A DNA stretch of 64,000 nucleotides, taken from NCBI GenBank assembly GCA_030016635.1, contig JASEJQ010000006.1:1-64000 (forward strand), written 5' to 3'. The translations under genes were made by a program, and so were the position numbers. This DNA comes from Thermoanaerobacteraceae bacterium (GTDB lineage Bacteria > Bacillota > Thermoanaerobacteria > Thermoanaerobacterales > UBA4877). This document shows positions 2,991 through 57,020 of this stretch, one piece after another (within the stretch, counting starts at the first letter, position 1; every line of letters starts with the position of its first letter). The notes below the pieces were generated by a model, which worked only from the letters and a program-made list of their open reading frames with translations, was not told the DNA's origin and made no database searches.

Positions 2991-3023
2991 TTGGCCTGGC
3001 CGAATTGGCCAGGCCATAAAAAT
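2991..3023 (+). terminator. Hairpin built from an inverted pair of the GGCCAGGCC motif
   Basis: GGCCTGGCC (2993-3001) and GGCCAGGCC (3007-3015) form a perfect 9-bp stem with a 5-nt loop, 20 bp after the MATE stop codon, followed by an A/T-rich tail rather than a clean T run. It probably terminates transcription. Both arms are exact copies of the 9-mer that is repeated throughout the window. Confidence 0.65.
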
Positions 3024-3042
3024 TTCCTATTCATCGTGCTTT

Positions 3043-3070
3043 TTGTAAAAATAGGATAAAAGGGTACAAT
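3043..3070 (+). promoter_or_regulatory. Putative sigma-A promoter for the OYE gene
   Basis: TTGTAA (3043-3048), 16-bp spacer, TACAAT (3065-3070), placed just before the ribosome site CTGGAGGTG and ATG 3091. The leader would be very short. Confidence 0.5.
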
Positions 3071-3090
3071 TATATCTGGAGGTGTTTTGT

Positions 3091-4113
3091 ATGAGCAAGC
3101 TTTTTACACCATATGAGATTAAGGGACTCAAACTTAAAAATCGTATAATGATGTCTCCTATGTGTATGTATTCGGCTGGTGACGATGGCCAGGCCAATGA
3201 CTGGCATTTTGTCCACTATGGCACAAGGGCCATGGGTGGGGTTGGTCTTATCATGCAGGAGGCTACAGCAGTAGAGAGGCGGGGCAGGATTACTGCCAAT
3301 GACCTTGGTCTCTGGGATGACTCTCAGATAGGACCGCTTAAAAAGATTGTTGATTTTGTGCACTCTACTGGATGCAAGATGGGTGTGCAGCTAGCCCATG
3401 CCGGTAGGAAATGTGAGGTTAAGGGTGAGAGGATAGTTGCCCCTTCAGCCCTGCATTGGAGCGATGAATACCCTGTGCCGGCAGAGCTGACCAAGGATGA
3501 TATTAAGGATATTGTAATGGCATTTGGCCAGGCCGCCGCCAGGGCTGTAAAAGCAGGATATGATACAGTGGAGGTCCATGCAGCCCACGGCTACCTCATA
3601 CATGAATTTCTCTCGCCACTATCTAACAACAGGGCAGATGAGTATGGCGGCTTAAGGGAAAACAGGGTGAGATTTTTAAGGGAAGTCCTGACAGAGGTAA
3701 AGAAAAACATACCTGAGGACATGCCTGTATTTATGCGGGTATCTGCCACTGACTTTGTTGATGGTGGTATAGACATAAATGAGACAGTGGAGATAGTGAA
3801 ACTTGTGAAAGACCTTGTGGATATTGTGGACTGCAGCTCAGGCGGTTTATTATCGCCCAGGATAGATTTATATCCAGGCTATCAGATAGGTTATGCGGAA
3901 GCTGTAAAGAGAGAGGCCGGTATCCCATCTGTGGCTGTAGGGCTTATATCCTCACCTGATATGGCCGAGGAGATAATAGGAAACGACAGGGCAAACCTGG
4001 TTGCACTGGGCAGAGTACTGTTGAGGCAGCCATACTGGCCTGTATATGCGGCCCATGAGCTTAAGGATGGAGATATAATAGCAGGGCAGTATTACAGGGG
4101 GAGATACAGATAA
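3091..4113 (+). CDS. namA: NADPH dehydrogenase, Old Yellow Enzyme family (YqjM/NamA type)
   Basis: This is a 340-residue FMN-dependent TIM-barrel ene-reductase that uses NADPH to reduce electrophilic alkenes such as enones and quinones in the cytoplasm. It matches the YqjM class in length and key residues: MSPMCMYSA near residue 25 holds the flavin-tuning Cys and the Tyr typical of this thermophilic-like subclass. VEVHAAHGYLIHEFLSP supplies the two substrate-binding His and the following Tyr, and the C-terminal ALGRVLLRQPYW is the phosphate-binding end. ATG 3091 fits GGAGGTG at 3078-3084; an in-frame GTG at 3082 overlaps that site. It carries two GGCCAGGCC motifs (3187, 3526), both read as Gly-Gln-Ala. 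It is monocistronic, with its own promoter and terminator. Confidence 0.92.
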   Translation: MSKLFTPYEIKGLKLKNRIMMSPMCMYSAGDDGQANDWHFVHYGTRAMGGVGLIMQEATAVERRGRITANDLGLWDDSQIGPLKKIVDFVHSTGCKMGVQLAHAGRKCEVKGERIVAPSALHWSDEYPVPAELTKDDIKDIVMAFGQAAARAVKAGYDTVEVHAAHGYLIHEFLSPLSNNRADEYGGLRENRVRFLREVLTEVKKNIPEDMPVFMRVSATDFVDGGIDINETVEIVKLVKDLVDIVDCSSGGLLSPRIDLYPGYQIGYAEAVKREAGIPSVAVGLISSPDMAEEIIGNDRANLVALGRVLLRQPYWPVYAAHELKDGDIIAGQYYRGRYR

Positions 4114-4139
4114 AGGCAGTACTCTTTTATGCAATTTTT

Positions 4140-4168
4140 AAGGATACGGATACAAGCGTATCCTTTTT
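4140..4168 (+). terminator. Rho-independent terminator
   Basis: AAGGATACG (4140-4148) pairs with CGTATCCTT (4157-4165), followed by a T run to 4168. It ends the OYE transcript. Confidence 0.85.
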
Positions 4169-4388
4169 CGTTTTCAGATACATAATTTGTGATAAGCATT
4201 TCACTTATAAGCCATCTCCGTTTATCATTGTGGTCTGTTATACGCCTGACCTGCACCCTGCATCTATAACAATCGCCGGAGAGCTCCTCAGACAAAATTG
4301 CACCACTGCCGGCAAAAGGTTCTATGCATCTTTTTATATTACCGTATATAAGCTCTTCTGGGGAAAATCTTTGTGGCGTATTGGGCAA
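4159..4388 (-). pseudogene. Internally deleted Dam-type DNA adenine methylase relic
   Basis: On the minus strand an open frame reads FSPEELIYGNIKRCIEPFAG, then SGAIL, which matches the conserved FYPEELVNGNVKRYVEPFVG followed by SGAVL of the intact D12-class methylase at 55325-56269. It then jumps to YRCRVQVRRITD and HNDKRRWLISEMLITNY, matching that enzyme's last 30 residues. About 220 residues between them, including the DPPY catalytic motif, are gone. This is the remains of a gene with one large internal deletion. The C-terminal end runs into the terminator region and there is no ribosome site, so I regard it as dead. Confidence 0.75.
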
Positions 4389-4426
4389 CTGACCTCTCCG
4401 CCGGCACGCTTTGCAAATGTCTTGCC

Positions 4427-6053: not shown

Positions 6054-6062
6054 TTAGTCCAT

Positions 6063-8597: not shown

Positions 8598-8604
8598 TTT
8601 GAAA

Positions 8605-13356: not shown

Positions 13357-14399
13357 TGTGGCAACGCATATCTGACGTTGCCGTCCCTGCCTGTCACAGT
13401 CTCTGCTGTGTAGAGGGAGTCTATGACAGCCTCCTCGGTAGCCTCTACTACTGCCTTAAAGAGACTGCTCATGACCTCACTGTTTTGATTTATTACTTCT
13501 ATCGTATATACAGGGTTTTCCGGCGAATGTTCAATGATATTCTTTGTGGAAAAGGCCACGGCTATATCGCCGCTGCCATTACTCATGTATGAGCCTGTCC
13601 TGGCCAGGCCAAGGGGCACCCTTCTTGCCAGCCTCTTCAAGCCGTGGGGGCCTAAAGGGGCGTCAGTTGCCACAATGACTATACATGAGCCGTCATCACT
13701 ATATCCATCAGGGTAGTCTTTTAACATCTCTCCGACTGGTATGCCCTTTATCATCAGGTCTTTCCTGCGGCCAAAATTGGTTAGGGTAAGCACACCCACC
13801 GTGTATCCTTCGGGTGTTATGCGTGAGGAGGTACCTATGCCCCCCTTGAACTCGAAGCACGACATCCCCTTGCCTGCACCAATATCCCCTGTCTCTATCT
13901 CTCCACCTTTAGCATTCTCTATGGCAGAAAAGACGTGCTCTTTTTTGACGTGCCTACCCTGTATGTCATTTAAGTAGCCGTCATTGCACTCTAAGACTAC
14001 CGGGTTTACTGTGCCTGTGGTTATTCCTATCTCGGGGTTTTTGGTTATCATGTATTCTACAAGGGCGTCAGAGGCCAGGCCGACGTTTAGCGTATTTGTG
14101 AGTAATATTGGCGTCTCAATATAACCCAGCTCATCTATCTGGATAAGCCCAACTGACTTGCCAAATCCATTTCCTACATAGCAGGCTGCAGGGACCTTTT
14201 TTTTAAAGAGATTGCCTCCATGGGGCAGGACTGCTGTCACACCGGTCCTAGCTGGGCCCTTACCAGGGACGAGCTTACCCTCCCCAAAGCAGACGGTAGT
14301 ATGCCCCACCAGTACGCCTTCCACATCGGTTATGGAGTTGTATTGTCCTGTATTCATACTGCCAATAGCGATTCCGTATTCCCTTATTCTTTTTCTCAA
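13344..14399 (-). CDS. P1 family peptidase (DmpA/S58, self-processing aminopeptidase)
   Basis: The 351-residue product belongs to the N-terminal-nucleophile aminopeptidases of family S58, including D-aminopeptidase DmpA and beta-peptidyl aminopeptidases. Visible motifs are NSITDVEGVLVGHTTV, GPARTGVTAVLPHGGNLF, TTGTVNPVVLECNDGYLND and DDGSCIVIVATDAPLGPHG. The Gly-Ser in the last would be the autoproteolytic cleavage site, exposing the catalytic Ser. ATG at 14399 lies after GGGGGTG on the minus strand. It is probably a cytoplasmic peptide-turnover enzyme; the substrate is unknown. The gene carries two GGCCAGGCC motifs (13602, 14073), both read as Gly-Leu-Ala. Confidence 0.88.
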   Translation of the reverse strand: MRKRIREYGIAIGSMNTGQYNSITDVEGVLVGHTTVCFGEGKLVPGKGPARTGVTAVLPHGGNLFKKKVPAACYVGNGFGKSVGLIQIDELGYIETPILLTNTLNVGLASDALVEYMITKNPEIGITTGTVNPVVLECNDGYLNDIQGRHVKKEHVFSAIENAKGGEIETGDIGAGKGMSCFEFKGGIGTSSRITPEGYTVGVLTLTNFGRRKDLMIKGIPVGEMLKDYPDGYSDDGSCIVIVATDAPLGPHGLKRLARRVPLGLARTGSYMSNGSGDIAVAFSTKNIIEHSPENPVYTIEVINQNSEVMSSLFKAVVEATEEAVIDSLYTAETVTGRDGNVRYALPHILS

Positions 14400-19927: not shown

Positions 19928-20899
19928 ATGAGAGAGATAACTTTTGCAGAAGCAACGCTGGAGGCTATGGCAGAAGAAATGGAAAGAGACCCACGAGTCT
20001 TTGTCATGGGTGAGGATATAGCAAGGCAGGGAGGTATTTTTGGTCAGTTTAAGGGCCTTCCACAGAAATTTGGTTATGATAGGGTGAGAGATACCCCGAT
20101 ATCTGAGACGACTATAGTCGGTTCGGGCGTTGGGGCAGCCTTAGCTGGCATGAGACCGGTTGTTGATATGCATTTTGTGGATTTTGTGGGTATCGCCATG
20201 GACGAGATATACAATCAGATGGCGAAGGTGAGGTATATGTTTGGCGGCCAGGCCACGGTCCCAGTGGTATTGAGAGCTCCGGATGGGATAACACAGTCAG
20301 CTGCAGCCCAGCATTCCCAGAGTTTAGAAGCGTGGTTTTTGCACGTGCCAGGGTTAAAGGTTGTAATACCATCCAATCCAGCCGATGCCAAGGGGCTGCT
20401 AAAGTCGGCAATAAGGGACGATAACCCTGTACTATATTTTGAAAACAAGGTTTTATACAGGCAGAAAGGTCCGGTTCCGGAGGATGAGTACCTTACACCT
20501 ATAGGCCAGGCCAACGTAGTAAAAGAGGGTAAAGATGTGACCATAGTGTCATATTCCATAACATTACAGAAATGCATAGAGGCAGCGAAAAGACTGGAAC
20601 AGGAGGGGATAAATGTAGAGGTAATTGATCTGAGGACTATTGTGCCTATGGACAAAGAGACAATCTATAACTCTGTGAAAAAGACCAAACATCTTGTAAT
20701 CGCCCATGAAGCAGTAAAGACCGGAGGAGTAGGAGCTGAAATAGCAGCCGCGGTTGCTGAGGATGTTATAGAATATCTGGATGGCCCTATCATGAGACTT
20801 GGTGGTAAGTTTACGCCCATACCTTTCAGCCCTGCTCTTGAAAAGATCTGGCCTCCTTCAGTGGAGGACATATATAGTGCAGTAAAACAAATAATTTAG
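19928..20899 (+). CDS. acoB: Acetoin dehydrogenase E1 beta subunit
   Basis: The 323-residue E1 beta partner forms the alpha2beta2 active site with AcoA. It shows the family run VFVMGEDIARQGGIFGQFKG, then TPISETTIVGSGVGAALAG, MHFVDFVGIAMDEIYNQ, and GAEIAAAVAEDVIEYLDGP near the C-terminal phosphate/E2-binding end. GGGGTGATATC precedes its ATG. Two GGCCAGGCC motifs (20246, 20504) are read as Gly-Gln-Ala. Confidence 0.88.
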   Translation: MREITFAEATLEAMAEEMERDPRVFVMGEDIARQGGIFGQFKGLPQKFGYDRVRDTPISETTIVGSGVGAALAGMRPVVDMHFVDFVGIAMDEIYNQMAKVRYMFGGQATVPVVLRAPDGITQSAAAQHSQSLEAWFLHVPGLKVVIPSNPADAKGLLKSAIRDDNPVLYFENKVLYRQKGPVPEDEYLTPIGQANVVKEGKDVTIVSYSITLQKCIEAAKRLEQEGINVEVIDLRTIVPMDKETIYNSVKKTKHLVIAHEAVKTGGVGAEIAAAVAEDVIEYLDGPIMRLGGKFTPIPFSPALEKIWPPSVEDIYSAVKQII

Positions 20900-38605: not shown

Positions 38606-38617
38606 GAGGGATGTATT

Positions 38618-40753: not shown

Positions 40754-40800
40754 TTGGCCTGGCCATGATAAACCTTAGATATCACCGGCCAGGCTTTTCT
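40754..40800 (+). terminator. Terminator built from the 9-mer motif
   Basis: GGCCTGGCC (40756-40764) pairs with GGCCAGGCT (40787-40795, one mismatch to the motif), followed by TTTTCT. Another terminator using an inverted pair of the repeated motif. Confidence 0.7.
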
Positions 40801-40964: not shown

Positions 40965-42614
40965 ATGAACAAAAAACTAATTACTTTAATGACCATTTTT
41001 ATTTTGCTGTTTTCACTGGCTGGTTGTTCCGGCCAGCCGACAGGAAATGAAGCACAGCAGGGGCAGACCCAGGAGGAAGGGCAGTCTGCAAAGACATCTC
41101 TTACCTACAATCTGGGGCCGCAGCCAAGGACTATAGACCCGGCCACATGCGACGAGGTGTATGGCTTTACGGTGATTAACAATGTCTTCGAGGGCCTGGC
41201 CAGATATGACAAAAACGGCAATCCTGAGCCCGGCATGGCGGAGTCATGGGAGACTTCCGATGATGGTCTAACATGGACATTCCACCTGAGAGATGCCAAA
41301 TGGAGTGATGGTAAACCTGTCACTGCTAAAGACTTTGAATACTCATGGAAGAGAGCATTAGACCCCAACACGGCAGGTCCTTATGCATATCAGCTATACT
41401 ATGTTAAAAACGGTAAGGCATACAATGAGGGAAAGGCTGATGCCTCAGAGGTAGGGGTGAAGGCTATAGATGACAAGACCCTCAAGGTAACTCTGGAAAG
41501 CCCAGCACTATATTTCCTTACTATAGTATCACTTCCGATATCTTACCCCGTAAGGGAAGACATTATCAAAGAACACCCGGAGGACTGGACAAACAATCCT
41601 GAGACCTATATAGGGAATGGACCCTTTAAGATGACAGAATGGGTTAATAACGATTCCTTCAGGTTTGTAAAAAATGAAAATTATTGGGATGCTCAAAATG
41701 TCAAACTGGAAAATCTCACTTTTACACTGATGACTGATGAAAACACAGCCCTGAGTGCCTTTAAATCCGGCGAGGTAGACTATATAGACACCGTGCCGCC
41801 GCTGGAAATACCTGGTCTTAAAGAGGATGGGCTGCTAAATACCGTCTTGACCATGAACACCACCATGGTTGAATTCAATACAACCAAAAAACCACTGGAT
41901 GACCCGAAGGTGAGGAAGGCTTTAAGCCTTGCCATAGATAGGAAAACCATAGTAGAAAACATAACACAAGGTGGAGAGAAGCCTGCCGGCGGCCTTGTGG
42001 CGTATGGTTTTCAGGATGCAGAGCCGGGAAAAGACTTTAGAGAGGTTGGCGGAGACTATTACCCTGTAGATAAAGCGGATGTGGAGACGGCAAAAAAGCT
42101 GCTGGCAGAAGCCGGGTATCCGGATGGGAAAGGTTTCCCAAAGCTCACCTATATATTCAATGACAGGTCTACAAACAAGCAGATTGCACAGGCACTTCAA
42201 CAGATGTGGAAGCAAAACCTTGGTATAGATGTGGAGCTCAAGACAGAGGAATGGCAGGTATTTATCCAGGACGTCATAAGTGGAAATTACGAGATGACCA
42301 GAATGGGGTGGCAGGCAGAGTTTATGGACCCTATAGCTATGCTGGAGCTTTTTACTACAGGCAGTCCTAACAACGACCCCAGGTGGAGCAACAAGGAGTA
42401 TGATGAGCTGATTGAAACAGCAAAGACCAGTACGGGCCAGAAGACACGTATGGAGGCACTTCATAAGGCAGAGGATATAATAATGGAGGAGATGCCCATA
42501 GCTCCTATTTTCTACAGTGTAAAGCAGAATGTGGTAAAGCCGGGACTCAAGGACTATATAGTTTTACCCAATAATGGGGTAGTACTGTTCAGAAACGCAT
42601 ATTGGGCAGAATAA
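40965..42614 (+). CDS. Peptide ABC transporter substrate-binding lipoprotein (OppA type)
   Basis: A 549-residue SBP family 5 lipoprotein: signal peptide with lipobox LFSLAGCSGQ, acidic/Gln-rich linker, then LGPQPRTIDPATCDEVYGFT, AESWETSDDGLTWTFHLRDA, SDGKPVTAKDFEYSWKRALD and a C-terminal MEEMPIAPIFYSVKQNVVKP. These are hallmarks of OppA proteins that bind oligopeptides. It has no permease genes of its own and probably works with the operon upstream or another Opp system. GGGGGAGGAG precedes the ATG. Confidence 0.92.
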   Translation: MNKKLITLMTIFILLFSLAGCSGQPTGNEAQQGQTQEEGQSAKTSLTYNLGPQPRTIDPATCDEVYGFTVINNVFEGLARYDKNGNPEPGMAESWETSDDGLTWTFHLRDAKWSDGKPVTAKDFEYSWKRALDPNTAGPYAYQLYYVKNGKAYNEGKADASEVGVKAIDDKTLKVTLESPALYFLTIVSLPISYPVREDIIKEHPEDWTNNPETYIGNGPFKMTEWVNNDSFRFVKNENYWDAQNVKLENLTFTLMTDENTALSAFKSGEVDYIDTVPPLEIPGLKEDGLLNTVLTMNTTMVEFNTTKKPLDDPKVRKALSLAIDRKTIVENITQGGEKPAGGLVAYGFQDAEPGKDFREVGGDYYPVDKADVETAKKLLAEAGYPDGKGFPKLTYIFNDRSTNKQIAQALQQMWKQNLGIDVELKTEEWQVFIQDVISGNYEMTRMGWQAEFMDPIAMLELFTTGSPNNDPRWSNKEYDELIETAKTSTGQKTRMEALHKAEDIIMEEMPIAPIFYSVKQNVVKPGLKDYIVLPNNGVVLFRNAYWAE

Positions 42615-42661: not shown

Positions 42662-43797
42662 TATTGCTTTTCAAGTTTCCTGCCAGATATTATAACTTCT
42701 CTATGGAATTTCTCATTTATTTCCTTTATCACCCTGTTTATACGAACATCATATTTCATGTCAAATATGGAAAGCTGCCTTGGCCCCTCTTCTGTCAGGT
42801 TGGAGACCGAAACACCTATGAGCCTGATGGGTTCATGGAGTTCCATGGCGTCGATTATCTTGCAGGCCAGGCCAGCTATATCCTTTTCACTGGATATCAG
42901 GTCATCTACTGTCCTGCTCCTGGTGTAAGTCTTAAAGTCCGATGTCTTGTACTTCACCGTCACAGTCTTTGCATAAAGACCATGCCTCTTTAAGGAATCA
43001 GCCAGTTCTCTTGAAAATTCCGTTACATATTTCTTCAATTCAGCCTTATCCATGGTATCCCTGTCCAGAGTGGTCTCCCTTCCCATGGACTTTGTCTCAC
43101 TGGATGTCTCTACAGGCCTATCATCTATACCCCGTATCAAATCATATATCTCAGAGCCAAACTTGCCGAAGAGGTTGATAAGCTGCTCCCTGGTAAGATG
43201 AAGCAGGTCATCCACAGTGTATATACCTATACTGTTTAGCTTTTCCGCAGATTTTTCTCCTATACCGTAAACCTTTCTCACAGGTAGAGGTTTTAAGATT
43301 TCCGGGACCATATCCTCTGTTATTACCATGAGGCCGTCGGGTTTATTCCAGTCTGAGGCCAGCTTGGCGAGAAACTTGTTATATGATACCCCTGCGGATA
43401 CTGTAAGCGAAGTCTTCTCAAATACCTCTCCCTTTATAGACTTTGCCATCTCTACAGCATTTTTTCCAGTAACGTCTAAATAAGCCTCATCTATAGAGAG
43501 GGGTTCTATCACATCTGTGTACCTATGGAGGATTTCAAATATTGAGGAAGATACCTCCCTATATCTCCCATGCCTTACAGGAAGAAAAATACCCTCAGGA
43601 CATAATGCCCTTGCCTGATACATAGGCATGGCAGAGTGCACCCCATATTTTCTGGCCTCATAGGAAGCGGTTGAGACCACGCCCCTCCCTGATATACCAC
43701 CTACTATCACAGGCTTTCCTTTGAGCTCCGGGTTATCCAGCTGCTCTACAGAAGCAAAGAAGGCATCCATATCCACATGAATGATACTTCTTTTCAT
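42661..43797 (-). CDS. dinB: DNA polymerase IV (Y-family)
   Basis: A 378-residue translesion polymerase. Palm motifs are HVDMDAFFASVEQL (first catalytic Asp), GVVSTASYEARKYGVHSAMP and LSIDEAYLDVTG (Asp-Glu). VYGIGEKSAEKLNSIGIYTV is the thumb helix-hairpin-helix and SMGRETTLDRDT begins the little finger. It bypasses damaged bases with low fidelity. GGTGAGG precedes ATG 43797, 5 bp after the upstream methyltransferase gene on the same strand, so they are likely one transcript. I see no clear beta-clamp motif other than the C-terminal region near QLSIFD, which fits the clamp-binding consensus. Confidence 0.94.
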   Translation of the reverse strand: MKRSIIHVDMDAFFASVEQLDNPELKGKPVIVGGISGRGVVSTASYEARKYGVHSAMPMYQARALCPEGIFLPVRHGRYREVSSSIFEILHRYTDVIEPLSIDEAYLDVTGKNAVEMAKSIKGEVFEKTSLTVSAGVSYNKFLAKLASDWNKPDGLMVITEDMVPEILKPLPVRKVYGIGEKSAEKLNSIGIYTVDDLLHLTREQLINLFGKFGSEIYDLIRGIDDRPVETSSETKSMGRETTLDRDTMDKAELKKYVTEFSRELADSLKRHGLYAKTVTVKYKTSDFKTYTRSRTVDDLISSEKDIAGLACKIIDAMELHEPIRLIGVSVSNLTEEGPRQLSIFDMKYDVRINRVIKEINEKFHREVIISGRKLEKQ

Positions 43798-43802: not shown

Positions 43803-44429
43803 TCACCTTTTAACCGGCCTGGCCACGATAAACTTCACAATATCGCTGGCCAGGTTTTTCTCCTCCACTATCTCAAAGCCGGCCTTTTTGATATTATCTG
43901 CTGTCCTCCTGTTTATGTTTGCCCCATATGTGCCGACAACCAGCGGGTTGATCAGGTCCATGATAAAGCCAGCCAAAGGGTTTTCAGACCGCACATGTTC
44001 TAAGAATATGGCTTGGCCATCTCTCTTTAAGACCCTGTGCAGCTCCTTTAGTCCCTTTATGGGGTCAGGTACAGAGCAGAATACAAAGGTTGATACTGTA
44101 AAGTCAAAGACATTGTCCTCAAACTCCAGGTTTTCAATATCCATTAAACTCAGTGTTATGTCCTTAAGTCCCAGATTTCTCCTTTTCTTCTCAGCTATCT
44201 CTATCATCCCGGGGCTAAAGTCAACTGCGGTAATATCTGCACCTTCGGGATAATAATCCATGTTCTTACCTGTACCAACGCCAACCTCCAGAACTTTTCC
44301 ATTAACCTTTTCAAAGACAAGACCCCTCCACTTTTGAAAGCCCAATGCCTCCATTGGGCTTTCAAAGGCGTTGTATAGCCCTGCTATCCTATCATATCTT
44401 TTCCTTATTACATCAGTCCTGTCTTTCAT
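43803..44429 (-). CDS. Class I SAM-dependent methyltransferase (UbiE/type 11-like)
   Basis: The 208-residue protein has a Rossmann methyltransferase core: VLEVGVGTGKNMDYYPEG (motif I), ITAVDFSPGMIEIAEKKRR (motif II Asp), DNVFDFTVSTFVFCSVPD and ELHRVLKRDGQAIFLEHVRS. It resembles phosphatidylethanolamine or quinone methylases by class; the acceptor is unknown. A 9-mer copy (43816-43824) lies in its last codons (Ala-Arg-Pro). Confidence 0.87.
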   Translation of the reverse strand: MKDRTDVIRKRYDRIAGLYNAFESPMEALGFQKWRGLVFEKVNGKVLEVGVGTGKNMDYYPEGADITAVDFSPGMIEIAEKKRRNLGLKDITLSLMDIENLEFEDNVFDFTVSTFVFCSVPDPIKGLKELHRVLKRDGQAIFLEHVRSENPLAGFIMDLINPLVVGTYGANINRRTADNIKKAGFEIVEEKNLASDIVKFIVARPVKR

Positions 44430-46716: not shown

Positions 46717-47634
46717 ATGAAAAGGAAAAATAACGGAGACGGATGGGCGGCTTACGCCTATCTGTCTCCTGCTCTTATTTCGATGGCTATCTTGAGTTTT
46801 TTTCCAATAGCATATACGGTGTATATAGCCTTTACCGACTTTAACCTGAATCACTTTAAAAACTATGAGTTTGTGGGTTTTAAGAACTTTACCTATGTCC
46901 TTACAGGGCCGTTTAAGGATATATTTTTCTCGGTGTTCCTCTGGACATTGATCTTTGCGGTATTATCCACCATATTGTGCTATATTGTTGGACTCATATT
47001 AGCTGTTCTTTTAAATAACAAAAACATGTGGGAAACCAACATATACAGGGCAATCCTGATCATACCGTGGGCTCTCCCGGGGACCATAGCCGTACTTGCA
47101 TGGTCAGGTCTGCTAAATGAGACTTATGGAGGGATAAACCTCATTCTCGATATGCTCAACTTATCGGCCAGGCCGTGGATGACAGACCCATTCTGGGCCA
47201 AGGTAGGCATCATTATTGCCAACGTATGGCTGGGCTATCCCTTTATGATGAACGTATGTCTCGGCGGACTCCAGGCCATATCGCCGGAGATGTATGAGGT
47301 GGCAGACTTAGACGGGGCCACATGGTGGCAGAAGCTGACGAAGATTACCATCCCTATGCTAATGCCTTCATCGCTGCCTCTTTTGATCTCTACATTTGCC
47401 TACAACTTCAACAACTTCGGTACAGCATATCTCATAATGCAGGGAATGCCGCCCAGGCCGGATACCCAGTTTGCCGGGTATACGGATATACTGCTGACAG
47501 CTTCATACAAGATGTCCCTGCAGTTTAACCGATATGACCTGGGAGCTGCCTTGAGCATAATAATATTCCTGATAGTAGGTGTGCTTAGCATTATCAACAT
47601 GAGGGCGACCCACGCCTTTGAGGAGGTGGAGTAA
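46717..47634 (+). CDS. Maltodextrin ABC transporter permease (MalF type)
   Basis: 305 residues with six helices; AYLSPALISMAILSFFPIAY at the start, NHFKNYEFVGFKNFTYVLTG in the P2-like loop, and EAA loop EMYEVADLDGATWWQKLTKI. GGTGAG (46704-46709) is spaced for ATG 46717; a GTG at 46705 in frame is the alternative. Contains a GGCCAGGCC motif at 47166 (Ala-Arg-Pro). Confidence 0.9.
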   Translation: MKRKNNGDGWAAYAYLSPALISMAILSFFPIAYTVYIAFTDFNLNHFKNYEFVGFKNFTYVLTGPFKDIFFSVFLWTLIFAVLSTILCYIVGLILAVLLNNKNMWETNIYRAILIIPWALPGTIAVLAWSGLLNETYGGINLILDMLNLSARPWMTDPFWAKVGIIIANVWLGYPFMMNVCLGGLQAISPEMYEVADLDGATWWQKLTKITIPMLMPSSLPLLISTFAYNFNNFGTAYLIMQGMPPRPDTQFAGYTDILLTASYKMSLQFNRYDLGAALSIIIFLIVGVLSIINMRATHAFEEVE

Positions 47635-48516
47635 ATGCAGGAGCCAATGGCCATGGCAACGATGAAGAGGGAGGTCCACAGGGAGAGGATAAAGCCGCAG
47701 GATAAGAGACTTCTCTGGATAAGCAGGGTGATAATATGGGCGGCTATACTCATAATACTGTTTCCGGTATACTGGGTTGTGATAGCCTCATTGAGCCCGG
47801 GGGATGCCTTCTTTACAGGAAGCTTGATTCCAAAAGGAGCAAGCCTTCAAAATTATGTGGATGTTATTCAGACGACAGATTTTCTCATATGGATTAAAAA
47901 CAGCATGATACTCTGTACAGGGGTTTCCATAATACAGCTTTTCATGACAACCACATCGGCATATGCCTTCAGCAGAATGAGGTTTAAGGGAAGGAAATAT
48001 GGTCTCATGACATTGCTGATACTGCAGATGTTTCCTACAATGATGGCCATACCAGCCATATATGGCATACTGGTCAGGATTAATATGCTGGATAGCATAT
48101 ATGCCCTTATGATTGTCCTGGCTGGTGGGAACGCATTTAATATATGGCTTTTGAAGGGATATATTGACAGCATACCCAGGGAACTGGATGAGGCAGCCAA
48201 GGTGGACGGTGCCACTCACTGGCAGATATTTACCAGGATTATACTACCTCTTATTGTACCCATGCTGGTAGTCATATTCCTCTTCAGCTTCATAGGTGTC
48301 TACAGTGAGTTTGCCATTACCAGCGCTGTCATCCATGACCCGGGAAGCTACACTGTGGCTTTGGGCCTTCAGAGGTTCATATTGAACCAGTTTGCCGCCC
48401 ACTGGACACTCTTTGCTGCAGCTGCTGTCATGGCTTCGCTGCCCATAACCATAGTGTTTATGCTTTTGCAGAGATACCTGCAGGCTGGCCTGGCCGCCGG
48501 GGCAGTGAAAGGTTAA
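47635..48516 (+). CDS. Maltodextrin ABC transporter permease (MalG type)
   Basis: 293 residues with N-terminal basic region, six helices and EAA loop ELDEAAKVDGATHWQIFTRI. YPVYWVVIASLS-like start segment reads LFPVYWVVIASLSPGDAF. It begins exactly after the MalF-type stop, with GGAGGTGG inside the end of that gene. Its last codons carry a GGCCTGGCC motif (48487). Confidence 0.9.
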   Translation: MQEPMAMATMKREVHRERIKPQDKRLLWISRVIIWAAILIILFPVYWVVIASLSPGDAFFTGSLIPKGASLQNYVDVIQTTDFLIWIKNSMILCTGVSIIQLFMTTTSAYAFSRMRFKGRKYGLMTLLILQMFPTMMAIPAIYGILVRINMLDSIYALMIVLAGGNAFNIWLLKGYIDSIPRELDEAAKVDGATHWQIFTRIILPLIVPMLVVIFLFSFIGVYSEFAITSAVIHDPGSYTVALGLQRFILNQFAAHWTLFAAAAVMASLPITIVFMLLQRYLQAGLAAGAVKG

Positions 48517-48526: not shown

Positions 48527-50278
48527 ATGAATAGAGAGGCTATATATCACAGGACTATGCTCCCTTTTGCATATCCCGTAGGGGAGCATGAGCTTAGATT
48601 GGTATTGAGAGCTGCTAAAGATGACATATATTTTTCGGAGGTCTTCTATGGCGACAGGTATGCAGAGCCGGGGAGTGAGGTAAGTACCCTTATGAGAAAA
48701 GAAGCCTCTGACAGTCTCTTTGACTATTATACCGTGACATTGTACACTGAGGAAAAGAGGGTAAGGTACTTCTTCCACCTGAGTGATGGGGAAGAGGACA
48801 TCTGGTATTCCGAGAAGGGGTTCAGTGAGGCCAGGCCGAAAGAGGGGCTGTTTCAATATCCATATATCTGCCCGGCTGACCTCTTCACAGAGCCGGACTG
48901 GATAAAGGGCAGGACCATATATCAGATTTTCCCCGACAGGTTTTACAATGGGGACAGAGATAATGACCCCGAGGGATGTGCAAAGTGGGGCAAATCCCCG
49001 AAGGCAGATTCCTTCTTCGGGGGAGACCTTAAAGGCATAACAGAGAAAATGGATTACCTGAAAGAACTTGGGATAGGTGTCCTGTATATGACGCCCATAT
49101 TCAAGTCCCCATCCAACCACAAGTATGATACATCTGACTATTACAGCATAGACCCCGCCTTTGGCGACAAGGATGACCTTAAGAACCTGGTCCGAGAGGC
49201 CCACAAGAGAGATATGATGGTGATCTTAGACGGGGTATTCAACCACTGCGGCAAGGACTTCTTTGCCTTTCAGGATGTGGCAATTCATGGCAAAAACTCC
49301 AGGTATAAGGACTGGTTTAACATATACAGCTACCCTTTGAAGGTGGGAAGAAACCCCAACTATGAGACCTTTGCCAATGGGGTCTATACCATGCCCAAGC
49401 TTATGACCCAGAACCCCGAGGTGAGGGAATATCTGATGGGTGTAGCAGAGCACTGGATAAGGGAAGTGGATATAGATGGCTGGAGGCTGGATGTAGCCAA
49501 TGAGATAGACCATGACTTCTGGCGGGAGTTCAGGAAGCGCATCAAAGCCATAAAGCCCGACGCCTTCATCATGGGCGAGATCTGGCATGACTCCATGGAA
49601 TGGCTGAGGGGCGACCAGTTTGACTCGGTGATGGACTACCCATGGAGAGAGGCAGTATTGGATTTCTTTGCCAGGGGAGAGATTGATGCGGTGGGATTTG
49701 ATGAGAGACTGGCGGGACTTCGCATGTCCTACCCATCAAATGTCTGGCCTGGCCTGGTAAACCTCCTCGGAAGCCACGATACAGCGAGGATTCTAACCCT
49801 CTGCGGCGACAGGAGAAAGGCAGCCTTAGCAGCGGTGTTTCAGATGACATACCCCGGCCTCCCCATGGTCTACTATGGGGATGAGATAGGCATGGAGGGC
49901 GGCAATGACCCCGACTGCCGCAGGACATTCGTCTGGGATGATAATGGCCAGGACAACAAGCTCTTAAATTTATATAGACAGCTCATAAAACTGCGCAGGA
50001 TATTTCCGCATCTTTCTGATGGCGACTACAGGACATGGCATACTGAGGGGAATGTGTATGCATATATCAATGGCAGTATAGGGGTTGTGATAAATAACAG
50101 TGATGAAGATATATCATTAAGACTGGATAACTTTACCATACTCAGGACAGTGGACATCCTGAGCAGGAAAAGCTATGGATTGGAGAAGTATCTATCCATA
50201 GACTTAAAGCCGTATTCAGCAGCCATTCTCCTTACAGAACATGACTATGAAAAAATGAGGGAGGCAGGGGCATGTTAA
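48527..50278 (+). CDS. GH13 alpha-amylase/neopullulanase-type maltodextrin hydrolase
   Basis: The 583-residue cytoplasmic-type glycoside hydrolase (no signal peptide) has an N-terminal CBM34-like beta domain (1-110) and a TIM barrel. Conserved regions: DGVFNHCGKDFF, DGWRLDVANEIDHDFW with the nucleophile Asp, IMGEIWHDSMEWL with the acid/base Glu, and LLGSHDTARIL with the third Asp. This matches cyclomaltodextrinase/neopullulanase enzymes, which cut imported maltodextrins or cyclodextrins. ATG 48527 follows AAGGTG; an in-frame GTG is at 48518. The stop overlaps the next gene by 7 bp. Two motif copies (48829, 49746). Confidence 0.9.
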   Translation: MNREAIYHRTMLPFAYPVGEHELRLVLRAAKDDIYFSEVFYGDRYAEPGSEVSTLMRKEASDSLFDYYTVTLYTEEKRVRYFFHLSDGEEDIWYSEKGFSEARPKEGLFQYPYICPADLFTEPDWIKGRTIYQIFPDRFYNGDRDNDPEGCAKWGKSPKADSFFGGDLKGITEKMDYLKELGIGVLYMTPIFKSPSNHKYDTSDYYSIDPAFGDKDDLKNLVREAHKRDMMVILDGVFNHCGKDFFAFQDVAIHGKNSRYKDWFNIYSYPLKVGRNPNYETFANGVYTMPKLMTQNPEVREYLMGVAEHWIREVDIDGWRLDVANEIDHDFWREFRKRIKAIKPDAFIMGEIWHDSMEWLRGDQFDSVMDYPWREAVLDFFARGEIDAVGFDERLAGLRMSYPSNVWPGLVNLLGSHDTARILTLCGDRRKAALAAVFQMTYPGLPMVYYGDEIGMEGGNDPDCRRTFVWDDNGQDNKLLNLYRQLIKLRRIFPHLSDGDYRTWHTEGNVYAYINGSIGVVINNSDEDISLRLDNFTILRTVDILSRKSYGLEKYLSIDLKPYSAAILLTEHDYEKMREAGAC

Positions 50279-51940: not shown

Positions 51941-52981
51941 ATGGCGGTAACCATAAAGGATGTGGCGGCACGGGCAGGGGTAAACCCCTCTACGGTATCC
52001 AGGGTGCTGGCCGAGAGCCCGCTGATAAGCGAGGAGACAAAGGAAAAGGTAAGGATGGCTATAAAGGAGCTGGGCTACCACCCCAATGCCATTGCACGCA
52101 GTTTAGCCATGAGCTCCAGCCGTACTATTGGCCTTGTCATATCCAGGCCAACAGAGCAGGCCTTTGCCAACCCATTTTTTCCAGAGGTCATAAGGGGCAT
52201 AGGCACTGTCCTGGAAAGGGAGGGCTACCACCTCATGCTGGAGATGGCCTCTGATGCAGAGTCGGAGGGAAGGACAACCCTCCAGATGTTAAAGAGTAGG
52301 AGGGTTGATGGGGTCATACTCACCAGTTCCAGGATTGGAGATAGCCTGATTTCAAGGCTCATAGGGGATGACCTGCCCTTTGTCCTCATAGGCAGGCCCA
52401 TTGGCAAGGAATACCAGGAGGTAGATCCCGTCCTCTGGGTGGACAATGACAATGTGCAGGTGGGATATGTAGCGACAGAGCACCTCATATTGAATGGAAG
52501 AAAGGACATTGCCATGGTAGACGGCCCCAAGGACCTGGTGGTTTCCTACGACAGGCTTTGCGGGTACAGGAAGGCCATGCATAGGTACGGCAGGGAAATA
52601 AGGGAAGAGTTTCTGATTAATGTCCCCTTTACAGAGGAGGGCGGGATTCAGGCGGCAGAGCATTTTATTAAGTCCGGTAGGATGCCCAATGCCATATTTG
52701 CGGCTGACGACAGCATCGCCTTAGGAGCTATAATGAGGCTTAAAGAACAGGGCATAACAGTACCCGACGATGTGGCTGTGGTTGGTGTAAACGACAGCCC
52801 CATAGGCAGGGTGGCCAGGCCGTCCCTCACCACAATGAGTGTTGAGATATTCGATATGGGTGTACGGGCGGCAGAAATGCTCATAGAGAGGATAAATGAC
52901 AGGGATACACCCTCCTACCATGTAGTCTTCCCTTCGGAGCTTATAGTGAGGGAGTCCAGTACGGCTTTAAAGGCAGAATAG
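51941..52981 (+). CDS. LacI family transcriptional regulator (maltose-type)
   Basis: 346 residues. The helix-turn-helix is MAVTIKDVAARAGVNPSTVS with RVLAESPLISEETKEKV after it, then a periplasmic-binding-like sensor (60-346) with IGLVISRPTEQAFANPFFPE and FAADDSIALGAIMRLKEQGI. ATG 51941 follows GTGAGGTG. It lies inside the maltodextrin block, so it probably represses these genes by binding the CG-centred dyads before the MalE-type gene. It carries one motif copy (52813, Ala-Arg-Pro). Confidence 0.9.
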   Translation: MAVTIKDVAARAGVNPSTVSRVLAESPLISEETKEKVRMAIKELGYHPNAIARSLAMSSSRTIGLVISRPTEQAFANPFFPEVIRGIGTVLEREGYHLMLEMASDAESEGRTTLQMLKSRRVDGVILTSSRIGDSLISRLIGDDLPFVLIGRPIGKEYQEVDPVLWVDNDNVQVGYVATEHLILNGRKDIAMVDGPKDLVVSYDRLCGYRKAMHRYGREIREEFLINVPFTEEGGIQAAEHFIKSGRMPNAIFAADDSIALGAIMRLKEQGITVPDDVAVVGVNDSPIGRVARPSLTTMSVEIFDMGVRAAEMLIERINDRDTPSYHVVFPSELIVRESSTALKAE

Positions 52982-52998
52982 TTGAGGAGGTTTGTTTA

Positions 52999-55278
52999 AT
53001 GCTTGGGAAGATTATCTCATATGATTGGACTGATAACAGTGTGGTACTTAATGGAAAAGGCTTTAATATCTATATTGACGTTTTGAGCAATAATATAGTA
53101 AATATTGCTGCCTCAAGGGGAGAGAGGCCGGCCCCCAGCCAGGCAGTGGTGATGAAAAGACAGAATGTCGAACTTCAGGTTGAGGAGAGTGATGGGTACA
53201 TCGACATCTCTACAGCCTCATTCAGGCTCAGGGTGTCCATAGAGGACAGCATTATGGAGATAGATGACGGCGATGGGTTTTTACTCAAGGACATTGAGCT
53301 AAACCTGAGTGATGACGATAGGTCATGCACTATAGATGTGAGGGAAGGGGAGCACTTCTATGGCCTGGGTGAAAAGACAGGCTTTCTGGATAAGAAGGGT
53401 TACAGGTACACAATGTGGAATACAGACTGCTATGACACCCATACCGAGGGCACGGATACCCTCTATGAGAGCTATCCCTTCTATATAGGGTTTAATCAGG
53501 AGGGCAGCTATGGCATATATTTCGACAACACATTCAGGACATACTTTGACATGGGTAAGAGCGACCCTGAGAGGGTAAGGTTTGGGGCAGAGCATGGCCC
53601 TATGGGTTTTTTCTTCATATATGGACGGGATATAAAGGACGTGGTAAAGGGCTACACAGAAGTGACAGGCAGGATGGATATGCCGCCGCTCTGGGCACTG
53701 GGCTACCAGCAGAGTAAATACAGCTATTACCCGCAGGATAGGGTTGTGGAGCTGGCGAAGTCATTCAGAGAGAAGGATATACCGGCCGATGTCATTTATC
53801 TGGATATTCACTACATGGATGGGTTCAGGGTATTTACCTTTGACAAGGAGAGGTTCCCCGATCCCAAAGCTATGATAGACGAGCTCGAGGAAATGGGCTT
53901 TAAGGTGGTCACCATCATAGACCCCGGGCTCAAGGCAGACGGATCTTACAGTGTATTTGCCGAAGGGATTAAAAACCACTATTTTGTGACTGACAAAGAT
54001 GGCCTTCCCTTTACCGGCAAGGTATGGCCTGGCCTCACCTGCCTGCCCGACTTTTCCAGGGACGATGTGAAGAGGTGGTGGGGTGACAACCATAAGGAGT
54101 TTATCGAAATAGGCATAGCGGGCATATGGAACGACATGAACGAGCCCGCAGTAATGGACACACCCACCAAGACCATGCCCGAGGATATGGTACACCAGAA
54201 TAATGGTAAACCCATCAGGCATGAGGAGTTTCACAACGTATATGCCCTCAACATGGCCATGGCCACAAAGGATGCCCTCTTGAGGTTCAGACCCAATGAG
54301 AGGACCTTCATCCTCACCAGGGCGGCCTTCTCAGGCATACAGAGGTATGCGGCCGTATGGACAGGGGACAACAGGAGCTACTGGGAACATCTGAAGATGT
54401 CCATGCCCATGCTTTTAAATATAGGTCTTTCGGGTGAGCCCTTCTGTGGTGCCGATATAGGCGGCTTTACTGACGACTGTAGCGAAGAGCTGCTTATAAG
54501 ATGGACACAGGTTGGTGTATTTTATCCCTTCTGCAGAAACCACAATGGCTTAGAGTCTAAGGACCAGGAACCGTGGGCCTTTGGCAGGAGGGCCGAGGAT
54601 ATAACCAGAGAGTTCATAAAGCTGCGATACAGACTTCTGCCATACATGTATAACCTGTTCTATGAGGCTAACACCACCGGCATACCGGTCATGAGGCCGC
54701 TTATAATGGAATATCCTGGCGACGAAATGTGTGCTGAGGTATTTGATGAATTCATGCTGGGTGAGAGCATACTGGTTGCACCAGTCTACGAACCCGGTAA
54801 GAGGGTCAAGGACGTCTACCTTCCGAAAGGCAGGTGGATTGCCTGGTGGACAGGAGAGGAGTATCAGGGAGGCAGGTACTACCTTGTAGATGCCCCGCTG
54901 GATAGGATGCCTATCTTTATAAAGGCTGGGGCGGTCCTCCCGATGGCCAGGCCTATGAAAAGTACATCAGACGGCATGGTTACGGAGTTTCATATCTTCC
55001 CCGGCACTATGTCGGGCGAATATGTTTACTACGAGGACGACTGCCGTACATTAAACTACATGAATGGAGAGTATAACCTCTACAGGATAAGCTACAGCAA
55101 AGGTGCAGAGGCTGCTGACATAAAGGTAGAAAAGCTATATTATGGGTATAGCGAAGGCCAGAGGCAGTTCCAGGTTGTATTAAGAGGAGAAAAGAATATC
55201 GAAAAGGTCCGGGTAAACGGCCAGGCCGCTGAGCCGGTTGCCAGAGACGGAGATGTAATAGTAGATATGACAGTATAG
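52999..55278 (+). CDS. GH31 alpha-glucosidase
   Basis: A 759-residue glycoside hydrolase family 31 enzyme. The N-terminal beta domain includes EHFYGLGEKTGFLDKKG, the barrel has the nucleophile Asp in GIWNDMNEPAVMD and the acid/base region AAVWTGDNRSYWEHL. Other family marks are DVIYLDIHYMDGFRVFTFD and PFCRNHNGLESKDQEPW. No signal peptide, so it would release glucose from short dextrins in the cytoplasm. GGAGG before the ATG; 17 bp after the LacI gene. Three motif copies (54026, 54945, 55219), each in a different reading frame. Confidence 0.92.
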   Translation: MLGKIISYDWTDNSVVLNGKGFNIYIDVLSNNIVNIAASRGERPAPSQAVVMKRQNVELQVEESDGYIDISTASFRLRVSIEDSIMEIDDGDGFLLKDIELNLSDDDRSCTIDVREGEHFYGLGEKTGFLDKKGYRYTMWNTDCYDTHTEGTDTLYESYPFYIGFNQEGSYGIYFDNTFRTYFDMGKSDPERVRFGAEHGPMGFFFIYGRDIKDVVKGYTEVTGRMDMPPLWALGYQQSKYSYYPQDRVVELAKSFREKDIPADVIYLDIHYMDGFRVFTFDKERFPDPKAMIDELEEMGFKVVTIIDPGLKADGSYSVFAEGIKNHYFVTDKDGLPFTGKVWPGLTCLPDFSRDDVKRWWGDNHKEFIEIGIAGIWNDMNEPAVMDTPTKTMPEDMVHQNNGKPIRHEEFHNVYALNMAMATKDALLRFRPNERTFILTRAAFSGIQRYAAVWTGDNRSYWEHLKMSMPMLLNIGLSGEPFCGADIGGFTDDCSEELLIRWTQVGVFYPFCRNHNGLESKDQEPWAFGRRAEDITREFIKLRYRLLPYMYNLFYEANTTGIPVMRPLIMEYPGDEMCAEVFDEFMLGESILVAPVYEPGKRVKDVYLPKGRWIAWWTGEEYQGGRYYLVDAPLDRMPIFIKAGAVLPMARPMKSTSDGMVTEFHIFPGTMSGEYVYYEDDCRTLNYMNGEYNLYRISYSKGAEAADIKVEKLYYGYSEGQRQFQVVLRGEKNIEKVRVNGQAAEPVARDGDVIVDMTV

Positions 55279-55281
55279 CTT

Positions 55282-55302
55282 TAGCGCTCCAGATGGGGCG
55301 CT
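55282..55302. repeat. 21-bp hairpin repeat, copy 1
   Basis: TAGCGCTCCAGATGGGGCGC plus T, with AGCGCTCC pairing GGGGCGCT around an AGAT loop, then TTAATTTTTT. It serves as terminator of the GH31 gene and is identical to 57835-57855. Confidence 0.8.
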
Positions 55303-55324
55303 TAATTTTTTGGTTTATATTAAA

Positions 55325-56269
55325 TCATTTCCTAAATACAAATAAGGCTTTATAGTTTGTGACAAGTATTTCATTTATAGAACCTCTGCGGCTGCTATTG
55401 GAATTTATCATACGTTTGGCCTGTATTCGGTGGATATAATAGTTTCTGTAAAGTTCATCAAAGAATTCGTCATTTGGGTTTTCGTTTTTGGGGTCGGAGT
55501 TGCTGAGCATAATCTTAGCGCCTCTTTCATCAAGTCTTTCAAAAAATTCTGCAAGTGCTATTTGTTCTCGATCATCAAAATCAGATTTATTATATGATGT
55601 AAAGTTTGATGTATCATTAAGAGGCCTGTAGGGTGGGTCAAGGTAGACAAAAGTATTGTTTTCGACGTATTTTATACTTTCCCTGTAATCAGCCTCGAAG
55701 ATTTTAACTCTTTGCAGCAAAGCATGGGCTGCATACAAATTATCCTCATCGCATATCGTGGGTTTTTTATAACGTCCTGCTGGTACGTTGAAAAGTCCCT
55801 GCTGGTTTACCCTGTATAGCCCGTTGTAGCATGTTCTGTTTAGAAAGATGAATAATGCTGCCTTTTCGATGTCTGGCCTGGCCTCATCTATTGGGGTCAA
55901 GTTATAAACAGACCTTATCCTATAATACATTTTTTCACGTTCTTCAAAGGTGCTTTTTAAATATTCTGCCTCGAGCATTTTGAGTTTATATATCAGCTCG
56001 TCAACACAATATTTGACAGCATTGTATGAATTTATAAGGTCCTTATTTATATCAAATATGTATGCTTCTTCTATGTTGTATTTTTGCATAATATCAAATA
56101 AAACGGCACCACTGCCGACAAATGGTTCTACATATCTCTTAACATTTCCGTTGACTAACTCTTCTGGATAAAATTTCAGAAATGTAGTAAGCAGCTGACT
56201 CTTCCCACCAGCCCATTTTACGAAAGGCCTGGCCGGTATATCAGTTCTTAAATTCACTATAGCTTCCAT
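55325..56269 (-). CDS. DNA adenine methylase, D12 class (Dam-like)
   Basis: A 314-residue N6-adenine methyltransferase of the DpnM/Dam type. The SAM motif is PFVKWAGGKSQLLTTFLKF near residue 16, motif VEPFVGSGAVLFDIMQKY, the catalytic FVYLDPPYRPLNDTSNFTSY, and the C-terminal SSRRGSINEILVTNY. It probably methylates GATC or a similar site. It sits convergent to the GH31 gene and divergent from a BREX relic; no restriction enzyme gene is adjacent, so it may be a solitary methylase. A deleted paralog is at 4159-4388. Two motif copies (55875, 56226). Confidence 0.92.
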   Translation of the reverse strand: MEAIVNLRTDIPARPFVKWAGGKSQLLTTFLKFYPEELVNGNVKRYVEPFVGSGAVLFDIMQKYNIEEAYIFDINKDLINSYNAVKYCVDELIYKLKMLEAEYLKSTFEEREKMYYRIRSVYNLTPIDEARPDIEKAALFIFLNRTCYNGLYRVNQQGLFNVPAGRYKKPTICDEDNLYAAHALLQRVKIFEADYRESIKYVENNTFVYLDPPYRPLNDTSNFTSYNKSDFDDREQIALAEFFERLDERGAKIMLSNSDPKNENPNDEFFDELYRNYYIHRIQAKRMINSNSSRRGSINEILVTNYKALFVFRK

Positions 56270-56363
56270 TGGTGCATACCCCCATATGTCCCTTAATTAT
56301 TTTTATTATACCATAATTTCAGAAATGAGCGGGGTATTATATACTGTAACCTGTGATGATAGT

Positions 56364-56386
56364 GCGCCTTACTGGAGGGCGCTCAA
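56364..56386. repeat. Divergent third copy of the GGGCGCTCAA hairpin
   Basis: GTGCGCCTTACTGGAGGGCG followed by CTCAA. Right arm GGGCGCTCAA matches the 57835-57855 copy and its flank, while the left arm and loop differ; GCGCC pairs with GGGCGC. Confidence 0.45.
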
Positions 56387-56540
56387 TTTATTTATTATCA
56401 ACAACGTGTCACATCCTTTTAAAAAAATGGAGGAATTTTATATAATTTGTAGAAATATTAAACTAATAATCACGTCTTTTGATGGATACATGACACACCG
56501 TGACAGAATGGTGGTTTAAAATATAAGGGGATGGTTTGAT

Positions 56541-57020
56541 TTGGATATTGAAGAAGAAATAATGGAGTTACTGGATGATCGGGATAACTCGTATTATCGC
56601 TTGATAATCATTGTAGGCGCAGGCGGCTCTGGAAAGACGGATATTTTAAAATCCATTGCTGACCAGTGTGGGACATATGTCAACCTGGGCCTGGCCCTAT
56701 CCGAGAAGCTCCTGGAGTATCCTATAGAGGAGAGGGCATATAAGGCCACAGACTGTCTCAGGGAGATATTAAACAGCATAGAGAAGGAACCGCTCCTGAT
56801 AGATAATATTGAGCTGCTCTTTGCCCCACACCTCAAGTTAAATCCCTTGAGCCTTTTGAAGCATGAGAGCAGATACAGAAAGATTGTTGCGGCCTGGCCT
56901 GGCCGATTTGAAAACGACAAACTCATATATGCCGAGTACGGCCATCCGGAATACAGGACATACGGCAAGAATGGCATTGAGGTACCCATATTAGACTTAG
57001 AGAGGAGACAAATCCAATGA
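56541..57020 (+). CDS. brxF: BREX-3 P-loop protein BrxF
   Basis: A 159-residue P-loop ATPase: Walker A VGAGGSGKTDILKSIAD, Walker B-like PLLIDNIELLFAP, and the C-terminal VAAWPGRFENDKLIYAEYGH and PEYRTYGKNGIEVPIL. These match the BrxF family of type 3 BREX phage-exclusion systems. The start is TTG after AAGGGGATGG. Its stop overlaps the start of a truncated BrxC-like frame by 4 bp, the normal brxF-brxC arrangement, but the rest of the system is lost. Three motif copies occur within this short gene (56688, and the overlapping 56891 and 56896). Confidence 0.85.
   Translation: MDIEEEIMELLDDRDNSYYRLIIIVGAGGSGKTDILKSIADQCGTYVNLGLALSEKLLEYPIEERAYKATDCLREILNSIEKEPLLIDNIELLFAPHLKLNPLSLLKHESRYRKIVAAWPGRFENDKLIYAEYGHPEYRTYGKNGIEVPILDLERRQIQ
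56891..56904. repeat. Overlapping tandem pair of GGCCTGGCC
   Basis: Two copies of GGCCTGGCC in the same orientation overlap by four bases, giving GGCCTGGCCTGGCC and encoding Ala-Trp-Pro-Gly-Arg in BrxF. Confidence 0.9.

Follow-up and report, generated by a model that had tools for sequence, protein, structure and literature searches.

GGCCWGGCC, a highly iterated symmetric DNA motif of one Thermoanaerobacterales family and a possible counterpart of cyanobacterial HIP1

HIP1 (GCGATCGC) has stood without explanation in cyanobacteria since 1995, and Xu and others reportedly found in 2018 that its sites are conserved between genomes. Chi, KOPS and matS are also short, genome-wide sequences, read by chromosome-handling proteins; of these, Chi and KOPS have polarity, and matS occurs in a single region only. 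The present analysis concerns GGCCWGGCC (W = A or T), a 9-bp motif scattered over a 64,000-nt stretch (contig JASEJQ010000006.1, positions 1 to 64,000, hereafter the window) of the genome of a Thermoanaerobacteraceae bacterium (assembly GCA_030016635.1) of the order Thermoanaerobacterales, whose family probably consists of heat-loving Clostridia. In both genera in which it is known, the exact 9-mer is near saturation wherever the encoded protein permits it. HIP1 is one of the highly iterated palindromes (HIPs), which are symmetric, GC-rich and over-represented, deviate most at their ends and are each accompanied by a capable methylase in the same genome (PMC4390886), at densities of about 500–2500 copies per Mb (Elhai 2015, PMC4390886). 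Haemophilus and Neisseria have uptake sequences described as non-palindromic and as occurring in non-coding DNA more often than expected (PMC1939737), and the uptake signal of Campylobacter jejuni, the 6-mer RAATTY, needs adenine methylation by CtsM (PMC10046745). A search of the available papers found none naming the GGCCWGGCC motif in bacteria.

The window matches GGCCAGGCC or its complement exactly at 33 places, 17 on the plus and 16 on the minus strand, and these are precisely the positions listed in an earlier sequence-only reading of this DNA. Its estimate of about 0.2 expected copies at 45% GC was too low: the window has a GC content of 42.8%, and 0.68 copies are expected from dinucleotide shuffles (mean of 100, maximum 4) or 1.3 from an order-2 Markov model. 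The strand balance on which it remarked is right as a count and near-automatic as a property, because the motif is palindromic except at its centre; GGCCAGGCC differs from its own complement there alone, and the unit is thus the symmetric GGCC-W-GGCC, with eight of nine bases G or C. The outlier analysis that it had proposed placed GGCCAGGCC first among 9-mers both in the window and in a 675-kb sample of the genome carrying the window (G000), where 241 copies were observed against 9.5 under an order-4 model. This genome (2.35 Mb, 114 contigs, 100% complete) holds 759 copies (391 + 368) against a single occurrence of the reversed control, and the sister genome (G001, about 2.6 Mb), which belongs to a different genus and is the sole other genome of the family in the collection, holds 664, corresponding to 323 and about 255 copies per Mb, respectively. 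The 21 other genomes of the order contain 0–12 copies each and the 13 of the same class 0–2; extending the list of relatives to 300 added no member of the order, the sampling of which appears complete for the collection. GGCCWGGCC is lineage-specific, with hundreds of copies on both strands throughout the genomes of two genera of one family, the motif-bearing genomes being these two only (n = 2). Two genomes of a single family in the same phylum (G109 and G068) contain 40 and 36 copies of the 9-mer against 0 and 4 of the reversed control, a mild excess that may be due to composition only.

Copy counts refer to whole genomes; the detailed statistics cover 1.03 Mb of G000 (44%) and 1.59 Mb of G001 (about 61%), with genes called as simple longest open reading frames. 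In these parts, 368 and 400 copies were observed against 7.7 and 8.1 expected from order-3 models with the motif masked, an enrichment of 48–49-fold; the shuffles, the Markov models and this roughly 50-fold enrichment rule out chance or composition as the cause. Sites of the form GGCC[C/G]GGCC number 21 and 16 in the whole of G000 and G001, and pairs of GGCC, of which there are 379 at spacing 1, number 6–27 at each other spacing from 0 to 12, so that other spacings are not enriched. Information in the flanks does not exceed 0.06 bits per position, bearing out the earlier statement that they are not conserved and ruling out a dispersed repeat with conserved flanks. Forms with a single mismatch occur at 1.6–1.8 times expectation (motif masked from training), chiefly through changes at the outer bases: in G000 the outer four positions account for 203 near-misses against 95 expected and the inner four for 84 against 68. 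They are often transitions (for example, terminal C to T, 39 against 9.5 expected), and the pattern at the outer bases looks like decay of GGCCWGGCC copies.

Saturation was defined as the fraction of sites able to spell the motif, given the protein sequence, that do spell it. About 70–88% of protein-permitted sites are occupied in G000 and 54–82% in G001, against 1–14% expected. The motif is carried in G000 by 147 of 216 Gly-Leu-Ala sites (68%) and 85 of 102 Gly-Gln-Ala sites (83%), for which codon usage predicts 2% and 6%, as well as by 53 of 60 [WRG]-Pro-Gly-[LPHQR], 56 of 69 x-Ala-Arg-Pro and 8 of 9 x-Ala-Trp-Pro contexts. With the A and T forms treated separately, log-odds are 3.9–4.7 in codon phases 1 and 3 and 3.0–3.6 in phase 2, lower in the latter, where a site taken by one form is lost to the other; computed for both forms together from the separate values, phase 2 gives about 4.9. 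Log-odds are near 4.5 whichever the frame, and the force on the motif differs little between frames, between strands or between genic and intergenic DNA. Gly-Gln-Ala and Gly-Leu-Ala are 2.8 and 1.5 times commoner than composition predicts, whereas shuffled tripeptides mostly are not, indicating that amino acids have shifted too and that proteins are bent towards the motif. Saturation is the same whether or not a gene has a match in the sister genome (70–79%; the unmatched genes include some unsampled in G001). Near-saturation of the permitted sites implies that some DNA-reading process strongly favours exact GGCC(A/T)GGCC.

Predicted genes contain 96% of the copies, in all frames, leaving about 4% intergenic (16 and 15 copies in the analysed parts of G000 and G001). 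Within the window genes, all three frames are used, as had been noted earlier (15, 4 and 11 copies at codon positions 1, 2 and 3, with three copies intergenic). Corrected for the GC-poorer intergenic DNA, enrichment in genes against intergenic DNA is 26- versus 34-fold in one genome and 28- versus 26-fold in the other, and a non-coding excess, looked for in the analysed parts of both, was not found. Enrichment in all frames and in intergenic DNA rules out a codon-pair or peptide effect and upholds the earlier view that the selected unit is DNA, not protein. The sequence-only reading had named two outcomes that would speak against it, a genome-wide frequency close to the Markov expectation and enrichment due to codon-pair use in a single reading frame; enrichment proved to be about 50-fold and to extend to all frames. 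Recognition by an abundant nucleoid protein or transcription factor, with a regulatory or domain-forming role, would account for the genome-wide distribution and for a symmetric odd-centred site, which fits a dimer, but with 96% of copies in genes, in random frames and without intergenic excess, and with unconvincing periodicity (p 0.03–0.73 on the five long contigs tested), we regard this as very improbable. Regular spacing was likewise not seen in the spacing tests: copies are present on nearly all contigs examined, their spacing in G000 is near exponential (median 1628, expected 1622), and those in G001 are more clustered, following regional GC. Polarity of the Chi or KOPS kind is excluded by the symmetry of GGCCWGGCC. 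The two inverted pairs described earlier as terminator-like hairpins both fold well (2993/3007, -22.4 kcal/mol, z -4.6; 40756/~40787, -20.8 kcal/mol, z -4.0); the former does consist of two exact copies, whereas the second arm of the latter (GGCCAGGCT) matches the motif at only 8 of 9 positions. With only about 4% of copies intergenic, terminator function was rejected as the cause of the motif.

Aligned DNA of the two genera is mostly 72–80% identical. In stretches of 70–80% identity, 44 of 79 copies are exact matches and 51 (65%) have the motif in the other genome, against 6% of GC-matched 9-mers kept; this is the comparison at orthologous positions called for earlier. Of the Gly-Leu-Ala and Gly-Gln-Ala tripeptides that diverged genes have in common, those spelled as the motif retain this DNA in 54 of 64 instances and those spelled otherwise retain theirs in 1 of 15, and identity of the codons GGC, CTG and GCC is about 80% within the motif and 36–43% outside it. 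Seen from G000, central A-T swaps make up 10 of the 25 single differences, indicating that the reader accepts W. Of the window copies, 18 align to G001, and each has an identical counterpart in it. Either sites have been kept or both lineages have been driven to the same state, alternatives that are hard to tell apart because of the saturation.

The reading that we prefer, and to which we give an even chance, makes GGCCWGGCC the counterpart of HIP1 in one Thermoanaerobacterales family: a highly iterated site in double-stranded DNA, symmetric in sequence. A protein with two-fold symmetry that acts all-or-none, such as a dimeric enzyme or DNA-binding protein, would read such a site on the chromosome of the cell itself, and selection or biased repair or conversion would favour the copies one by one, and not for their spacing. 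By analogy with what is suspected for HIP1, its likeliest role would be internal to the chromosome, in recombination, repair or nucleoid organisation.

The motif contains CCWGG and two copies of GGCC, classic methylase targets, as HIP1 contains GATC and CGATCG, and, as in the published description of HIP1 (PMC4390886), its near-misses are most frequent at the outermost bases. Under Elhai's model for HIPs, it could be a by-product of methylation-directed repair, in which mismatch repair, guided by a methylase of GGCC, CCWGG or the entire motif, retains mutations that lead towards it. The two PF01555 (N4/N6-type) methylases present in both genera might supply such an activity. However, neither a C5-cytosine methylase (PF00145) nor Vsr was found in G000 or G001, the absence of Vsr also removing Vsr repair as a cause, and both PF01555 enzymes sit in tracts 99.3–99.5% identical between the genera and therefore moved recently, whereas the motif, shared at diverged orthologous sites, is old. 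One of them belongs to an MjaI-type restriction-modification system and would have a CTAG-like specificity. The other, on contig C95 of G000, has homologues of 62–73% identity in genomes with only 30–81 motif copies, and for this reason and its recent acquisition was rejected as the cause. No methylase matching the motif in age was found among PF00145 and PF01555, other families not having been searched, and we consider the methylation model improbable. The 293-aa protein beside the C95 methylase carries, on reading its sequence, a motif suggestive of PD-(D/E)XK nucleases; its structure model was too poor (mean predicted local distance difference test score, pLDDT, 56) and gave no fold match. 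The MjaI-type methylase of G001 has a C-terminal nuclease-like domain. G000 has few CTAG sites, 372 in 1.03 Mb with both strands counted.

G000 encodes ComEC, PilB/PilT, ComEA and DprA, together with a type IV pilus cluster comprising PilC, pilins, prepilin peptidase and PilM/N/O-like genes, assigned by reading their sequences; the best named match of PilB is from Thermoanaerobacterium butyriciformans (64%). Natural competence within the order is reported for Thermoanaerobacter and Thermoanaerobacterium species in a paper citing Shaw 2010 (PMC4857275). Competence genes, for which the sequence-only reading had advised a search, are thus present, but PilB/PilT, ComEA and DprA are present in motif-free relatives too. 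G000 and G001 also share mosaic tracts of 1–12 kb and 94–99.6% identity inside longer diverged (72–80%) alignments, which, judged from these alignments, represent recent homologous exchange between the two genera; simple misbinning is excluded because diverged flanks of several tracts sit in the same contigs. The 21 motif-free relatives, which are also more distant, match one 20-kb test stretch at 64–82% only. Raw motif density is 0.62 per kb in exchanged tracts versus 0.35 outside, dropping to a ratio of 1.1–1.45 (z at most 2.1) after GC stratification, and the remaining weak enrichment is suggestive, not evidence. These genes and tracts point to the main rival explanation, a DNA uptake signal, according to which a competence pilus or ComEA-like receptor prefers GGCCWGGCC DNA and recombination of that DNA drives the motif up. 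Symmetric uptake signals exist, namely methylated RAATTY in C. jejuni (PMC10046745), but those of Haemophilus and Neisseria are non-palindromic and non-coding-enriched (PMC1939737), and we think this explanation possible though unlikely. The likeness to uptake sequences of Pasteurellaceae and Neisseriaceae proposed earlier holds for the genome-wide, lineage-specific distribution, the competence genes and the exchange, but it is not supported by the symmetry, the lack of an extended flank and of an intergenic excess, the mild enrichment of near-misses and the sharing of the genes with motif-free relatives. The partial analogy with HIP1, also proposed, was supported by symmetry, absence of a flank and of an intergenic excess, and outer-base near-misses. 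We know of no DNA uptake motif previously known in Clostridia, and if GGCCWGGCC were an uptake signal it would, to our knowledge, be the first there. On a bolder view, which we rate as rather unlikely, Clostridia would have in GGCCWGGCC their first symmetric self-DNA recognition signal for natural transformation, possibly an unmethylated one; it would keep genera that differ at 20–28% of bases exchanging kilobase tracts, and the drive would explain near-saturation.

Several points weigh against a HIP1 counterpart. The density of about 250–320 per Mb is below the range given by Elhai for HIPs; cyanobacterial HIPs accompany a capable methyltransferase (PMC4390886), and no enzyme of this kind with a credible history turned up in G000 or G001; an uptake signal, too, would be consistent with the recent exchange between the two genera; and no protein reading GGCCWGGCC was identified among the candidates considered (competence proteins, PF00145 and PF01555 methylases, and Vsr). 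As an independent motif with HIP1-like behaviour, in a distant phylum and in an order where natural transformation works, GGCCWGGCC offers a second test bed in which general features of HIPs can be separated from cyanobacterial ones, a resident C5 methylase not being needed. The saturation measure, with log-odds near 4.5 in each frame, recasts 'over-represented' as a force that every model must yield.

Table 1. Motif copies in the window and associated features in the two genomes; exchange is judged from alignments.
Feature	Location	Strand	Codon position	Context	G001
GGCCWGGCC	2993..3001	-		intergenic, hairpin arm 1, after MATE-transporter gene	
GGCCWGGCC	3007..3015	+		intergenic, hairpin arm 2 (-22.4 kcal/mol)	
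GGCCWGGCC	3187..3195	+	1		
GGCCWGGCC	3526..3534	+	1		
GGCCWGGCC	13602..13610	+	1		
GGCCWGGCC	14073..14081	+	1		
GGCCWGGCC	20246..20254	+	1		
GGCCWGGCC	20504..20512	+	1		
GGCCWGGCC	22865..22873	-	1		
GGCCWGGCC	23024..23032	-	1		
GGCCWGGCC	26093..26101	-	1		
GGCCWGGCC	26824..26832	+	3		
GGCCWGGCC	27511..27519	+	3		
GGCCWGGCC	35818..35826	+	3		
GGCCWGGCC	38214..38222	+		overlaps copy at 38219 (GGCCAGGCCTGGCC)	identical
GGCCWGGCC	38219..38227	-		overlapping pair with 38214	identical
GGCCWGGCC	40756..40764	-		intergenic, hairpin arm (other arm ~40787-40795, GGCCAGGCT, 8/9)	identical
GGCCWGGCC	41193..41201	-	1		identical
GGCCWGGCC	42865..42873	+	1		
GGCCWGGCC	43816..43824	-	3		
GGCCWGGCC	47166..47174	+	3		identical
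GGCCWGGCC	48487..48495	-	1		identical
GGCCWGGCC	48829..48837	+	3		identical
GGCCWGGCC	49746..49754	-	2		identical
GGCCWGGCC	52813..52821	+	3	apparent recently exchanged tract	identical
GGCCWGGCC	54026..54034	-	2	apparent recently exchanged tract	identical
GGCCWGGCC	54945..54953	+	3	apparent recently exchanged tract	identical
GGCCWGGCC	55219..55227	+	1	apparent recently exchanged tract	identical
GGCCWGGCC	55875..55883	-	3	apparent recently exchanged tract	identical
GGCCWGGCC	56226..56234	-	3	apparent recently exchanged tract	identical
GGCCWGGCC	56688..56696	-	1		identical
GGCCWGGCC	56891..56899	-		overlaps copy at 56896 (GGCCTGGCCTGGCC)	identical
GGCCWGGCC	56896..56904	-		overlapping pair with 56891	identical
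Apparent exchanged tracts	window 38013-39760, 52037-53091, 53525-56279			also G000 C17, C19, C20, C25, C26, C38, C65, C95	
C95 methylase (N4/N6-type)	G000 C95, stretch L188 92-1901			with adjoining 293-aa putative endonuclease	C6 37102-38025, without endonuclease; transposase-like gene upstream
MjaI-type restriction-modification system	G000 C89, stretch L189 6091-7137				C17, stretch L107 342-2262

The window starts with the 3' end of a 23S rRNA gene (1-77), followed by 5S rRNA (161-267). A separate interspersed repeat, GGCATGGACGCC...GGAGGCGTACCCGGCG, occurs in G000 (stretch L011 6146-6248 and elsewhere), its 12-mer being present in 29 copies in 1.03 Mb and in 4 in 1.59 Mb of G001; the repeat had no Rfam match above threshold. 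Contigs C2, C3 and C12 of G000 consist entirely of N in the sequence examined.

Among known systems, GGCCWGGCC resembles the DNA uptake sequences DUS (Neisseriaceae) and USS (Pasteurellaceae): the core is 9–10 bp long, both strands bear copies by the hundred, genes contain them in several reading frames, and inverted pairs now and then form hairpins. Its host also has competence genes and exchanges DNA with a sister genus. Unlike these asymmetric, non-coding-enriched sequences, GGCCWGGCC is symmetric and exact, with no flank and no intergenic excess. RAATTY shares the symmetry and serves for self-recognition in C. jejuni, no methylase being linked to GGCCWGGCC. Chi, KOPS and matS are similarly short and genome-wide, but GGCCWGGCC is non-polar and lies on nearly all contigs examined. 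HIP1 and the alternate HIPs are, like GGCCWGGCC, symmetric, GC-rich, tens-fold over-represented, lineage-specific and without a settled function, with near-misses commonest at the outermost bases. GGCCWGGCC differs from them in its phylum, in being an odd-centred 9-mer with W, in its density (255–320 per Mb versus about 500–2500) and in that neither a C5 methylase nor a vertically kept methylase was found with it; saturation of permitted sites is, in addition, quantified here. GGCCWGGCC thus works like a HIP, although its density and phylum keep us from filing it as a member.

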